From Myxococcales bacterium (GTDB taxonomy: Bacteria; Myxococcota_A; Polyangia; Polyangiales; Polyangiaceae), in contig JACPVJ010000184.1 of the NCBI GenBank assembly GCA_016191785.1, positions 1-64,000 of the forward strand: DNA of 64,000 nucleotides, written 5' to 3'. Shown in pieces: positions 21,378-25,885 of this stretch. The position numbers were made by a program, and so were the translations under genes. Below the pieces are notes generated by a model. That model was not told the origin of the DNA, did no database searches, and saw nothing but the letters and a program-made list of their open reading frames with translations. Positions within the stretch are counted from its first letter, which is position 1; the number at the start of each line of letters is the position of its first letter.

Positions 21378-22385
21378 GTGGACCGCGAGCCCAACATCGT
21401 CGAGCGCATCGCCGGCAGCCAAGAGCGCGTGCACATCGCCATTGGCGCGATCTGCAACAACAACTGCGTCTTCTGCATGGAAGAGGACCGCGAGGGTCGT
21501 CAGGTCATCAACTCGGCAATGACCGCCGAGCGCGTGCGCTGGGTGCTGGAGTCACATCGTGGCGCCGAAGAGGTGTGCTTCACCTCGGGCGAGCCGACCA
21601 CGCGCGACGACCTGCCGAGCTTCGTGGCCTTGGCCAAAGAGCTGGGCTACTCGCGGATCAGCCTGATGACCAACGGCCGGCGCCTGGGTCACCTGCCCTA
21701 TGCCGCGGCCTTGGTGAAGCGCGGCCTCAATCGAGTCTACGTCTCGATCCACGGTCACGAGCCCGCGCTGCACGAGGGGTTGACCCGCACACCGGCCAGC
21801 TTCGACCAGACTGTGGCCGGGATCCGCTCCGCGGCCAAGCTCGCTGCGGCCGGCGTCGAGCTCCACACTTCGACCGTGGTCACCAAGCGCAACCTGCCGC
21901 ACCTCGAGGCCATCTATCGCTTCTTGCGCGGGCTCGGGGTGCATCAGGTGGTGTTCAACGTGATGCAGGCGAACGGCCGCGCGCACACGCACTTCGATCG
22001 ACTCTTCCCCCGCTACACCGAGATTGCCGCAGAGTTCGCCCGTATGCTCGCGGCGCTGAGCGAGGCCCCGCCGATGGCGTACTTGGTGGACATTCCGTTG
22101 TGCACCACCGAGGCGGTTCCCGATCTGGCTCGCGGGTACGTCGAGAAGCATCGCCGCTACGACCCGGACACCGGGGGCGGCGCAGCAGAGCGCCGGGCAT
22201 CCGGGAACGGAAGAGGGCTCACGCTCTCGACGCGCGCCGATCTCGACCACGCCCAGCGCGACAAGAGGCAAGAGTGCAGCCAGTGTCGCTACGATGCCGT
22301 GTGCGAGGGGGTCTGGAAGAACTACCTCGGGCGCTACGGCTGGGACGAGATGGTCCCGGTGCCTCGGGTCGCCGCCGCAGAGTGA
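21378..22385 (+). CDS. Radical SAM enzyme with SPASM-like C-terminal cysteines
   Basis: A 335-residue radical SAM protein. The cluster motif CNNNCVFC lies at residues 26-33, then GEP-type motif (CFTSGEPTTRDD), SLMTNGRRL and VYVSIHGHEPALHEGLTRTP. Near the C-terminus ECSQCRYDAVCEGVWKNYL is the usual SPASM-type half-cluster seen in MoaA/peptide-maturase relatives. A short insert (DPDTGGGAAERRASGNG) precedes it. The GTG start has only a distant GGAG upstream. It stands alone between a lipoprotein and a convergent channel gene; no precursor peptide is visible, so the substrate is unknown. Confidence 0.87.
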   Translation: MDREPNIVERIAGSQERVHIAIGAICNNNCVFCMEEDREGRQVINSAMTAERVRWVLESHRGAEEVCFTSGEPTTRDDLPSFVALAKELGYSRISLMTNGRRLGHLPYAAALVKRGLNRVYVSIHGHEPALHEGLTRTPASFDQTVAGIRSAAKLAAAGVELHTSTVVTKRNLPHLEAIYRFLRGLGVHQVVFNVMQANGRAHTHFDRLFPRYTEIAAEFARMLAALSEAPPMAYLVDIPLCTTEAVPDLARGYVEKHRRYDPDTGGGAAERRASGNGRGLTLSTRADLDHAQRDKRQECSQCRYDAVCEGVWKNYLGRYGWDEMVPVPRVAAAE

Positions 22386-22391
22386 GCCGGC

Positions 22392-24464
22392 TCAGAGCGC
22401 CGTCGTGTCGCTGAACTTGTCGTAGTCCACTGCCAAGCGGCCGTCGGGCAGGTCACTGATCACGTCCACGAAGCGGTGGCCGAATCGAATGTCCTCGGGG
22501 TAGTAGATCTTGCGAGCGTAGGTCGTGGTTCCGTAGGTGCCGTCGTGCCCCATCAGTGTGCAGACGATGGCGCGGACCTTGTCGTGTGCGTTCTCGGGGG
22601 TGATGTCGCGCATCGGGCTGTCGTCGCCGACCACGTGCATCACCAGCCACGAGAGGGTGAACAGCGGCTGCGTCGCCCGCTCGAGCGGCAGCTCGTACAG
22701 GCGGCGCAGTTTGTGGCCCTCGAGCGTCACTTCGTCCCGCAGCACCGTGACCCGTACGCTCGCTTCGACCACGTCGTTGCCTCGGGCGTTGGCCACGCGA
22801 AACATCAAGGTGGGTTTGCCCTGCCGCGGCTCGACGGTCATCACGTCACTGAACAAGACGCCGGACCGCGGCCGCGCCAGCTTGGCGAAGATCAGGCCGG
22901 TGACCACAGCGACGCTCACGAGGGACAGCGCCGCCTCGACCGTGACCAGCACGTTGGTGAAAGTGCTGGCCGGAGCCAGCGCTCCATAACCAATGGTCGC
23001 CATGGTCTGCACGCTGAAGAAGTAGGCGTCCAAGAACGAGTGCGGCGCCGCGTTGGCGATCCCACCCGGGTCGAGCAGGTAGAGCGAGGCGAACACCAGG
23101 TTCCCGAACGAGTAGGCAAACCCGCACGCGCCGAACAGCCGCCACCACGACCCTTCCATGAAATAGACGTAGAGGTCTCGCCGGAGCGCGCTCGGTGCGC
23201 CCCGCCTCACGGCTTCGCCGGGATCCCAGCGACGCGCCCCGGGGGCCCACGGGGCAGGCTCCGCGGGCGACGGCTGACGACTCATCGCGTGCGCGTGATG
23301 GTCGGCCTGTCGGGGCGACGTGGAAATGTCGAAGACGACCTGTGCCACGCACACCACTGCGATCAGCCCCAGCCAGACGAAGGAGGGGACGAAGCCGCCG
23401 ACCACCCCGAGGGCGAGCACCAACACCGCCGACACCAGGCGTGCGCTGACCCGAGCGTCGTCCGGGAAGTCCGACTCCCGACGCTCGGTGAGGTAGTCGA
23501 TGAAACCCACCGCGGCGAGCGCCAGCGCCAGGCTGCCGCAGAACAGCCAGCGATACTTGGCCGAGCCGACGTCCGACAGGCCCATGCTCGCGGCCTTCTT
23601 CAACGAGACCCCCACCGCGGTCACCGCCACCGCCAATGGCAGGTGCCCGTACACCCAGAGCACGCTGCCCAGCCTCTTCGCCTTCAGGCGTGCGCCGGCG
23701 ACGTCGTCGAAATAGATCCACCAGATGGTGCAAGTGACCAGCAGGCCCAGCGCCGAGAGCGTGCCGGTCTCGAGTGTGAGCCCACGGTCGGCCAGCTCGG
23801 ACAGCACCTTCACGAAACCCTCGCCGAGCACGATCAGCACCAAGATGCCGTAGCGTTCGGAGACGTGTCCGAAGTCGATCGGGAAGCGTTCGATCAAGCC
23901 GAGCGCGCTCTTCCCGAGCGGAGTCGACAGATCCACGGCCTGCGCCAGGGCCCAGAGGAAGAACGCCCAGGGCGGCGGCACGAACGCGCTCGCCAGCCAG
24001 ATCGCCGCTCCCAGCGCGAACCCGACCCCGTAGCGCCGCGTCATGCCTCGAGCTTCGGGCACTTGCGCGTGGGCGCGAACGTACATGACCACGACGACGA
24101 CCCGCGCGACTCCGTACGCCAGCGCGAAGGTCTGATGCTGCCCATCCAGGACCTTCGGAACGCTGCTGGCCACCGCGCCGATGGCGAGCATCTGCGCGAA
24201 GACCAGCAGCCGGTGGACCGCGTCGTCGACCAGGAAGCGATTGTTGTAGAAGGTGAACCCGGTCCAGGTGAACCAGAGCGGGATCATGAGTCCGGTGAAG
24301 GCCAGCGCGCCGAACAGGCTCACGTGCGATGCCAGCGCCGAACCGAGCTGGATCAGCGCCGCGACGTAGACCAGATCGTAGAACAGCTCGAGCCACCCGA
24401 CCTTTCGCTCGTGCCCCGGCTTGGGGCTCCAGAGCGCCGCCCGATGGAACCACCGACTCTCCAC
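22392..24464 (-). CDS. LtrA domain fused to a KirBac-type inward-rectifier potassium channel
   Basis: A 690-residue fusion. Residues about 1-400 are an LtrA (low temperature requirement A) multi-helix membrane domain with its hallmarks WLELFYDLVYVAALIQLG, SERYGILVLIVLGEGFVKVL and IWWIYFDD. Residues about 425-690 form a complete KirBac unit: slide/M1 helix (LYVYFMEGSWWRLFGACGFA), pore helix and selectivity filter ATIGYG (489-494), M2 helix, then the cytosolic IRK beta-sandwich (GVLFSDVMTVEPRQGKPTLM, FRVANARGNDVVEASVRVTV, MHVVGDDSPMRDITPENAHD). Start GTG 24464 is chosen because longer frames overlap the methyltransferase by about 280 bases; it begins VESRW, just before LtrA. The methyltransferase lies 31 bases upstream. 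A sensor- or transporter-gated potassium channel is inferred. Confidence 0.88.
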   Translation of the reverse strand: MESRWFHRAALWSPKPGHERKVGWLELFYDLVYVAALIQLGSALASHVSLFGALAFTGLMIPLWFTWTGFTFYNNRFLVDDAVHRLLVFAQMLAIGAVASSVPKVLDGQHQTFALAYGVARVVVVVMYVRAHAQVPEARGMTRRYGVGFALGAAIWLASAFVPPPWAFFLWALAQAVDLSTPLGKSALGLIERFPIDFGHVSERYGILVLIVLGEGFVKVLSELADRGLTLETGTLSALGLLVTCTIWWIYFDDVAGARLKAKRLGSVLWVYGHLPLAVAVTAVGVSLKKAASMGLSDVGSAKYRWLFCGSLALALAAVGFIDYLTERRESDFPDDARVSARLVSAVLVLALGVVGGFVPSFVWLGLIAVVCVAQVVFDISTSPRQADHHAHAMSRQPSPAEPAPWAPGARRWDPGEAVRRGAPSALRRDLYVYFMEGSWWRLFGACGFAYSFGNLVFASLYLLDPGGIANAAPHSFLDAYFFSVQTMATIGYGALAPASTFTNVLVTVEAALSLVSVAVVTGLIFAKLARPRSGVLFSDVMTVEPRQGKPTLMFRVANARGNDVVEASVRVTVLRDEVTLEGHKLRRLYELPLERATQPLFTLSWLVMHVVGDDSPMRDITPENAHDKVRAIVCTLMGHDGTYGTTTYARKIYYPEDIRFGHRFVDVISDLPDGRLAVDYDKFSDTTAL

Positions 24465-24495: not shown

Positions 24496-25338
24496 TCAAG
24501 GGGTCGAGGCCGATCGGCCGCTGGCCCGCCACACCCGCGCGGGCGTGCGGAGGCCGGCGAGGTGTGGTGCTGCCTGCTCGGCCGCGATCGGCTCGGAGCG
24601 AGCGAAGCCCGCCCGCTCGAAGTAGCTGCCGATGGCAGCGCGACTCGGGAAGTCCTCGCGAGCGCCGCGCCCCCGCGTGACGAGCCAGATCCCGGCGCGC
24701 AGCAGCTTGGCTCCGGCCGCCACCGCGGGCCCGCCTTCCCGCGAGCGCAGGTCGCACAGGAAGCCGCCTCGGCCACCCAGGGCCCGGGCCACCGAGCGGG
24801 CGACGTGCTCGCGGTCCGAGAGATCGAAGTAGCCCAGGACCCCCTCCGCGATCACGACCGGCCGTTTGGCGCCGTGCAGGGTCCTCTCGAGCCAGTCCTC
24901 GAAGCCGGGCCCGGTCACGTCCACCGCCTCGTGGCGCAATCGCTCGCGCGCCCGGGCACGCAGCTCGGCAGGCACCCGATCGGCGATGATCTGCCGCTTG
25001 GCCTCGACCATGTGAGGCAGATCGATCTCGAGGTAGTCGACGCCGCGATCCGCTGCCCAGGTCAGGCCGCGCCGGGAGAGCCCCGCGCCGATCTCGACTA
25101 CCCGGTCGGGCTGGGCCTCGTCGAGCGCGTGCTCGATGCATCGGTGTCGCAGCTCGAGGTACTGCAACATCGAAGGCACGGTGGGGTGAACCACTGCGAG
25201 CCACTCCCCGGCGGCTCGAAACGACCAGAACAAGCGGCGGCCTCTCGCCGTCGCGAAGTGTTCGGCGTGGGGAAAACCCAGCCGGTGCCAGGCGTAGGCG
25301 GTGTAGTGAGCGGTCGGGGCGATTTCGGCGTGGGACAT
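24496..25338 (-). CDS. Class I SAM methyltransferase, leucine carboxyl methyltransferase (LCM) family
   Basis: A 280-residue methyltransferase starting MSHAEIAPTAHYTAYAWHRL. SAM-binding motif I is VVEIGAGLSRRGL, motif II contains DYLEIDLPHMVEAKR, and VVIAEGVLGYFD matches the EG(V/L)xxYL block of the LCMT/PPM1-type family that includes O-methyltransferases of secondary metabolism. The frame runs upstream to 25722, but that part is the antisense of the neighbouring membrane gene; ATG 25338 begins the conserved region. It leads a two-gene unit with the LtrA-Kir channel; no functional link between the two is known. Confidence 0.82.
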   Translation of the reverse strand: MSHAEIAPTAHYTAYAWHRLGFPHAEHFATARGRRLFWSFRAAGEWLAVVHPTVPSMLQYLELRHRCIEHALDEAQPDRVVEIGAGLSRRGLTWAADRGVDYLEIDLPHMVEAKRQIIADRVPAELRARARERLRHEAVDVTGPGFEDWLERTLHGAKRPVVIAEGVLGYFDLSDREHVARSVARALGGRGGFLCDLRSREGGPAVAAGAKLLRAGIWLVTRGRGAREDFPSRAAIGSYFERAGFARSEPIAAEQAAPHLAGLRTPARVWRASGRSASTP

Positions 25339-25417
25339 CGGCAAGGGCGGGGGAAGGTGGGTCGCCCCACCGGCGTAGCAGGACGCGAACGGTTCGTCAG
25401 CGACCCTCATACAGGCC

Positions 25418-25885
25418 GTGTCTGGTACGCCCACCTTTTCTGCGCAAGCAGACGCCGAGATCTCCGCGGCGACGCCCCCGCTGGTTGCGGTCGTCGCGGG
25501 CCGAGTCGTGCTCGTGCTCGGCGTTTTCACGGTCTTGTACGGCGCCCAGTCGCTGACGAACCTTCGTTTTCTCTCGTGGCACTGGCTCTTGCCGGCGCTC
25601 CTCTTGCCGGTCGGAGCCGCCAGCGCGGTGACGGGCTGGAAGCTCTCCCGCGGGCGCGGCTGGGCGGCGGTCGCCGGGTTCGTGCTCGCGGCGCTCAGCG
25701 CCCTGGTCACCACGGTCTTCACCGTCCTCGCCCTGACCTGGGGCTACTTCTCGCTCCTTTCGCCGATGGTCGGACTGGCCGCCACGGCCTCCGGCCTGCT
25801 CGCGGCGCTGTCCATCGGCGCGTGCCAGCGCACCGATCGCGCCCGGGCGGTGCTGGCCGAACAGGGCTTCGAGCTCGGCGTCTGA
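25418..25885 (+). CDS. Small multi-pass membrane protein
   Basis: A 155-residue protein with about four hydrophobic helices (PLVAVVAGRVVLVLGVFTVL, LLPALLLPVGAASAVTGWKL, AAVAGFVLAALSALVTTVFT, LLSPMVGLAATASGLLAALS) and a short charged C-terminus (QRTDRARAVLAEQG). Starts at GTG 25418 (VSGTPTF). No family recognised. It is divergent from the methyltransferase across a 79-base gap and ends next to the convergent cyclophilin gene. Confidence 0.65.
   Translation: MSGTPTFSAQADAEISAATPPLVAVVAGRVVLVLGVFTVLYGAQSLTNLRFLSWHWLLPALLLPVGAASAVTGWKLSRGRGWAAVAGFVLAALSALVTTVFTVLALTWGYFSLLSPMVGLAATASGLLAALSIGACQRTDRARAVLAEQGFELGV

Follow-up and report, generated by a model that had tools for sequence, protein, structure and literature searches.

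A KirBac-type potassium channel with a built-in LtrA membrane module of predicted TMEM175-like fold

The window analysed here, the first 64,000 nucleotides of contig JACPVJ010000184.1 from a Myxococcales bacterium, holds a gene in which a membrane domain of the LtrA family precedes an inward rectifier of the KirBac type. The LtrA family has, to our knowledge, no agreed function. The locus raises the question of what such a domain does at the front of a potassium channel and, because it ties LtrA to a channel with a measurable output, it makes LtrA function directly testable.

The fusion gene and its occurrence

The gene lies at 22392-24464 on the minus strand as one uninterrupted frame of 690 residues, which opens with GTG at 24464 and closes with a TGA whose last base is 22392 (Table 1). 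The GTG start is backed by homologues with Met at the same place. A Pfam search of the protein returned LtrA (residues 21-375), Ion_trans_2 (458-529), IRK (475-532) and IRK_C (536-688), all four above their cut-offs. The LtrA match (PF06772) scored 253.2 bits against a cut-off of 31.9 and covered profile positions 1-354 of 356. For the Kir half, the best PDB chains by sequence were 7swj, 1p7b and 2wll, which we take to be KirBac1.1, and KirBac3.1 (E = 7.7e-62 to 1.1e-56). The initial annotation had described an N-terminal LtrA domain and a complete KirBac channel with the filter TIGYG in a single frame, and had proposed a Pfam search for LtrA and IRK as a check; the open frame and the domain matches agree with it on each count.

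Table 1. Positions of the fusion gene, its parts and its two neighbours in the window
Feature	Position	Strand	Basis
Radical SAM protein gene, convergent with the fusion gene and facing its 3' end	21378-22385	+	PF04055, E 7e-19
LtrA-KirBac fusion gene	22392-24464	-	690 codons + TGA; open frame, Pfam, start and architecture common to relatives
LtrA domain, residues 21-375, 12 predicted transmembrane helices	23340-24404	-	PF06772, E 5.8e-75; AlphaFold2 helices
TM1 motif E26-L-F-Y-D30	24375-24389	-	In register with TMEM175 FSD motif in repeat-1 profile alignments
Linker, residues 382-419	23208-23321	-	Mostly disordered in model (386-409 pLDDT < 50); variable; often histidine-rich in relatives
Kir N-terminal stretch with short slide helix, residues 420-438	23151-23207	-	Holds P424, R428, G438; 425-432 pLDDT < 50
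Kir two-helix pore domain, residues 440-530	22875-23147	-	Pfam, PDB sequence matches, model
Selectivity filter TIGYG, residues 490-494	22983-22997	-	Translation and alignment
Kir cytoplasmic domain (IRK_C), residues 536-688	22401-22859	-	PF17655, E 4.2e-25; strands in model
Leucine carboxyl methyltransferase-like gene	24496-25722	-	PF04072, E 6.8e-10

The LtrA and Kir parts had 0.90 and 0.89 GC at third codon positions, and the linker 0.81. The gene is the sole LtrA match and the sole IRK_C match in its genome (8.3 Mb, estimated 95% complete). The filter pattern T-x-G-Y/F-G was found in 28 of 30 relatives; the fusion proteins L022 and L027 have SIGYG in place of TIGYG. Histidine is often abundant in the linker of relatives (L024, L025, L026 and L031 are examples), though not in every one, and a histidine-rich linker is a possible metal or pH element in these proteins.

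Genome contigs contained 13 related loci, nine of them intact fusions at 41-92% identity; in L011 the frame of the fusion is broken once, within LtrA, and the other three are Kir alone. Residues 400-425 had been singled out at the outset as a place where a frameshift would undo the fusion, a concern that fails on the nine intact loci, in which the linker there varies in length and sequence. The named relatives are metagenome-assembled genomes, which would be compatible with an artefact, be it a missed stop, a frameshift or a chimeric assembly of neighbouring ltrA and kir genes. This explanation was rejected, because dozens of separate assemblies carry the same stop-free architecture, including that of G002, a 5-contig genome of the same genus as the window with an intact fusion, and because trees separate fused from solo LtrA and fused from solo Kir (see below). 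We give it virtually no chance of being correct.

LtrA was searched for in 377 genomes from Myxococcota, the phylum of the window. There were 48 matches, 47 of them over the cut-off, and LtrA and Kir share one open frame at 35 of the 47 loci, three of which (L032, L034, L106) are cut by a contig end. The remaining 12 comprise one fused but frame-broken locus (L108), seven stand-alone LtrAs (L020, L021, L041, L096, L098, L099, L102) and four cut or partial loci (L036, L105, L107, L109). For G327, the 48th match, below the cut-off, the fused-family profiles gave no match. This set and the 13 contig loci overlap, several genomes being common to both. The Kir fusion is the usual form of LtrA in this phylum.

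LtrA was present in five of the 59 nearest genomes and fused in four of these. Among 247 genomes of Acidobacteriota, the phylum of L004 (Holophagae), five had LtrA over the cut-off, two fused (L063/L004 and L076) and three stand-alone. Two further groups contained the fusion, intact in G406 (group of 5 genomes) and frame-broken in G408 (group of 74). The joined protein is present in many bacteria that are only distantly related. A match was found in 149 plasmid records, none covering 80% of the query, so that no full fusion was found there. Viral contigs gave 39 pattern matches and no relative of the fusion protein, and a search of NCBIfam returned no family over cut-off. Large solo Kir frames (L047, L053, L061) were considered as other kinds of fusion and rejected, since they hold no Pfam domain beyond the Kir part.

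Neighbouring genes were compared across fusion loci. The leucine carboxyl methyltransferase-like gene precedes the fusion gene on the minus strand, with 31 bases between them, and the two are perhaps co-transcribed; it was absent from the non-congeneric fusion loci compared. No neighbour was common to the window and the non-congeneric loci L003-L011 (frames of at least 90 amino acids, E 1e-10), the remaining matches being antisense frames that overlap the fusion gene. An operon or set of partner genes was rejected on this basis. On a Nostoc edaphicum plasmid (L112, 1704-6179), a stand-alone LtrA gene and a gene for an ion channel of the bestrophin family lie close to each other, separated by a gene for an ATP-binding protein.

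Predicted fold of LtrA and its relation to TMEM175

The LtrA part was modelled with AlphaFold2 from a 51-row alignment, which gave 12 long helices at high confidence (pLDDT 91.1, pTM 0.89). In a Foldseek search of the PDB with this model, human TMEM175 came first, with five chains at probability 1.00, TM 0.59-0.66 and rmsd 5.2-7.3 A (9vsp, TM 0.64, E = 7.6e-4; 6w8p, 0.66 and 0.59; 6w8o, 0.59; 6w8n, 0.61). A further TMEM175 chain, 8vic, matched at probability 0.92 and TM 0.49. The match spans the whole length of the model and its full 12 helices. E-values were modest, only one of 185 matches (9vsp) falling below 0.001. LtrA is TMEM175-like in predicted fold, and not a proven member of the TMEM175 family. 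In the accessible text of PMC7176437, vertebrate TMEM175 has two repeats of six helices and bacterial TMEM175 has one; that of PMC10216561 describes a proton-activated channel that conducts K+ and H+.

LtrA might instead transport a solute or act as a membrane enzyme, in either case drawing on the flux of K+ or reacting to it. Its many invariant charged and aromatic residues would suit such a role, as would the lack of a solved structure related to it by sequence; a PDB search with the LtrA profile gave no match at E up to 10. Against this, nothing besides TMEM175 exceeded probability 0.23 or TM 0.28 among the best 50 of the 185 Foldseek matches, and we think a transporter or enzyme highly unlikely.

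At the level of sequence, the resemblance is no more than suggestive. The TMEM175 family PF06736 was not among the 20 families matched by any of the 51 LtrA rows (E up to 10, HMMER filters on). Comparison of LtrA and TMEM175 profiles gave P = 0.11, and in a separate run repeat 1 of LtrA scored E = 0.22 against 0.14 for the reversed control. With deeper profiles, repeat 1 matched TMEM175 at P = 0.0072 in local and 9e-4 in global mode, reversed controls giving 0.019-0.027; its score was reached by 12 of 200 block-shuffled controls in the local comparison and 2 of 200 in the global one. Repeat 2 matched TMEM175 no better than controls, 71 and 66 of 200 shuffles scoring as high. A possible internal six-helix repeat of LtrA scored P = 0.016 with a shallow profile and 6.8e-4 (local) and 2.7e-4 (global) with deeper ones, scores that 8 and 7 of 200 shuffles reached, so that the repeat is not firm.

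The alignments of repeat 1 place W-L-E-L-F-Y-D of LtrA on R-L-E-A-F-S-D of TMEM175. According to the accessible text of PMC7176437, TMEM175 has an FSD motif at the start of TM1 in each repeat, and in MtTMEM175 the motif residue Asp30 touches Trp74 of helix 2. F-Y-D of LtrA repeat 1 is in register with the motif, which has no clear counterpart in repeat 2. The LtrA equivalents of Asp30 and Trp74, D30 and W67, are invariant in all 51 rows, as are E26, H200 and R204 together with D30 in fused and solo proteins alike.

The position of the K+-selective Thr38 of MtTMEM175 (Asp+8, TM1) corresponds to position 38 of LtrA. This was Ile, Val or Leu in 40/40 fused rows, while the solo LtrAs had Thr in 5/11 and Ala in 6/11. 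At D+4, the fused rows had Val in 37 cases and Ala in 3; both counts treat L036, which is cut by a contig end, as fused. Judged by position 38, the stand-alone LtrAs may be better candidates for K+ channels than the fused ones. LtrA could be a missed two-repeat branch of the TMEM175 superfamily, in which case the fusion would couple an H+- or ion-conducting LtrA to a P-loop K+ pore. We regard this as doubtful; were it true, two unrelated cation-channel folds would sit in one protein, and the LtrA family would have its first molecular function.

History of the fusion and residues specific to it

Trees were built for both halves of the protein, pieces under set lengths being omitted here and from the profiles, and their roots are not proven. 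In the Kir tree (60 domains), 19 of 21 solo Kirs formed one clade (100/100), and the other two, L058 and L081, fell among the fused Kirs. The fused label required three changes on this tree, of which the starred branches force at least two, and none of 500 shuffles gave so low a number. In the LtrA tree (60 rows), the fused domains formed one clade (100/99), which also held L114, a solo LtrA on a very long branch, and L036, the locus cut by a contig end. Here too the fused label required three changes, at least two of them forced.

L058 is a Kir with fusion-signature residues from a genome (G009) that is 97% complete. A profile search of this genome found no LtrA, although the same search gave matches in other genomes. 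Since L058 keeps the signature residues in a genome with no LtrA match, its fused ancestor probably lost LtrA. The Kir part thus persists alone in G009, and the pore is therefore the part able to stand alone. L081 (genome G660) consists of the Kir part only, lies on a long branch and has none of the six residues first listed as fusion-specific; we are unsure whether it marks a second loss. The tests do not show a single origin; the trees are most simply explained by one ancient fusion that has mostly been retained and from which LtrA was lost at least once.

The probable loss in L058, with the Kir kept, would suit a module that serves assembly, stability or localisation, by dimerising or anchoring the channel, and has no part in gating. 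Simple anchoring, however, would give little reason for charged residues in membrane helices (E26, D30, H200 and R204) to stay invariant in fused and solo proteins, and this explanation seems to us quite improbable.

Residues that set fused LtrAs apart were then mapped on the model. A position was called fusion-specific if fixed in the 39 fused rows (at least 95%) and not in the 18 solo rows (at most 50%); L036, L052 and L060 were omitted from this contrast, and truncated genes and duplicates from the set of relatives used for the filter and linker alignment. Of 22 such positions, 18 lie on the cytoplasmic face, which accounts for 109 of 385 positions, and none on the periplasmic face (p = 1.2e-7). 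Within TM1-TM12, 15 of 19 were cytoplasmic (p = 1.5e-7). The depth cut of 0.17 behind these values was set after the positions had been seen; five other cuts, from 0.05 to 0.5, gave p = 3.7e-4 to 7.1e-7. The same contrast for three solo LtrA clades placed 8/44, 3/18 and 0/3 positions on the cytoplasmic face, showing no such bias, and the third clade compared with fused rows alone gave 0/4. When six fused rows were drawn at random, three such subsets had p = 0.0016, 3.6e-5 and 0.011. The orientation of the model follows the positive-inside pattern, with a mean over 31 fusions of 10.5 Lys and Arg in 68 cytoplasmic loop residues versus 2.6 in 58 periplasmic ones.

In the Kir part, clear fusion-specific residues, as judged from extended rows, were P424, R428 and G438, just before the first pore helix, and Y644 in the cytoplasmic domain. 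L461, L464 and G562 were weaker, being common to 9 or 10 of the 21 solo Kirs. R420 and G422 were rejected: their apparent specificity came from gaps where solo rows had been trimmed, and it disappeared once these rows were extended. The cytoplasmic-face bias in LtrA and the residue pattern in Kir are the trace to be expected from a docking surface between LtrA and the Kir gate.

Possible role of LtrA and comparison with known systems

From sequences and models we infer that LtrA is a TMEM175-fold sensor that docks on the Kir gate and regulates it, with pH or an ion as input; we favour this reading tentatively, its chances of being right falling a little short of those of being wrong. The protein would be a KirBac-type K+ channel in which every subunit carries an N-terminal LtrA module. 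Both LtrA termini would lie in the cytoplasm: LtrA has 12 predicted helices and Kir channels start on the cytoplasmic side, so the N-terminus of the protein should lie there too. Four Kir parts would form the pore, with four LtrA modules around it, probably as two TMEM175-like pairs. By pressing on the slide helix and cytoplasmic domain, the modules would control whether the Kir gate is open or closed. Their input would probably be pH or an ion, read by a charged set on TM1, TM7 and TM9 (E26, D30, H200, E203, R204, H274), because TMEM175 is proton-activated and LtrA keeps this set in its helices. Fused LtrA appears more likely to be a sensor than a K+ pore, since the position matching the K+-selective threonine of TMEM175 is Ile, Val or Leu.

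The initial annotation had taken the fusion as a clue to LtrA function, and rightly so, as the conserved fusion gives a handle on LtrA. A putative role in gating or accompanying K+ flux fits both this conservation and the fusion-specific residues of the cytoplasmic face, and the predicted TMEM175 fold is a stronger clue than the fusion alone. Several observations weigh against gating of Kir by LtrA. L058 has no LtrA and yet retains the Kir signature residues, so that these need not serve contact with LtrA unless the loss was recent, and the conserved cytoplasmic face could also bind another partner. The sequence link between LtrA and TMEM175 is weak, the full-length AlphaFold model (pTM 0.55) does not give the mutual placement of the LtrA and Kir parts, and no neighbour gene is conserved.

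LtrA could itself be a path for H+ or cations, the adjacent Kir pore supplying a K+ counter-current, so that coupling would be more electrical than mechanical. Thr at the selectivity position in five of the 11 stand-alone rows (the other six being Ala) is in keeping with this, as is the predicted fold of a channel that, in the accessible text of PMC10216561, conducts K+ and H+. The fused rows point the other way, with Ile, Val or Leu at position 38 throughout and Val or, in three rows, Ala at D+4. Electrical coupling alone would not require fusion-specific cytoplasmic residues either, and we consider an ion path through fused LtrA unlikely.

The initial annotation knew of no described protein of this architecture, and none appeared in the mainly open-access literature searched: no work was found there linking LtrA with TMEM175, inward rectifiers or potassium channels. 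At title level, no paper devoted to LtrA was among the matches listed. LtrA is absent from the main text of PMC4607889, on the KirBac-like NirBac channels. The architecture may sit uncommented in databases such as InterPro. The protein is a KirBac channel extended by an integral membrane module of a new kind. If the predicted fold is right, LtrA would be a bacterial relative or look-alike of the Parkinson-associated channel of lysosomes, with which it would share the layout of 12 helices, and a novel type of membrane regulator would form part of a Kir channel.

The Kir half resembles KirBac1.1 and KirBac3.1, its closest PDB relatives by sequence and fold, in its slide helix, two-helix pore, TIGYG filter and IRK_C domain; unlike them, the fusion has about 390 extra N-terminal residues with 12 transmembrane helices. 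Fused Kirs also stand apart from the main solo Kir clade. The LtrA half belongs with the low temperature requirement protein A family, nearly the whole Pfam model being matched, and has in common with stand-alone LtrAs the invariant E26, D30, W67, H200, R204, W248 and Y251. It differs from them in being fused to a channel, in its fusion-specific cytoplasmic residues, and in having Ile, Val or Leu, not Ala or Thr, at position 38. With TMEM175 it would share the predicted 12-helix fold and, in repeat 1, LE.F.D in TM1 and Trp in TM2 in register. It differs in that PF06736 is not matched, repeat 2 is without a clear FSD motif, and the fused forms are without the Thr layer and are joined to Kir. 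Bacterial TMEM175 has one repeat (PMC7176437, accessible text), in contrast to the 12-helix LtrA.

Two other systems offer parallels in design. In the KATP channel, a Kir6 tetramer is surrounded by SUR, an ABC-type membrane regulator, as separate chains. The arrangement proposed here likewise surrounds a Kir tetramer with a large regulator in the membrane, and by analogy LtrA would act as SUR does around Kir6, but in one chain and with a TMEM175-like fold. Bestrhodopsins are rhodopsin-bestrophin fusions, in which a multi-helix membrane sensor is joined to an ion channel. LtrA-Kir similarly fuses a multi-helix membrane domain, a putative sensor, to an ion channel, although the domains are unrelated and no retinal site is known in LtrA-Kir.
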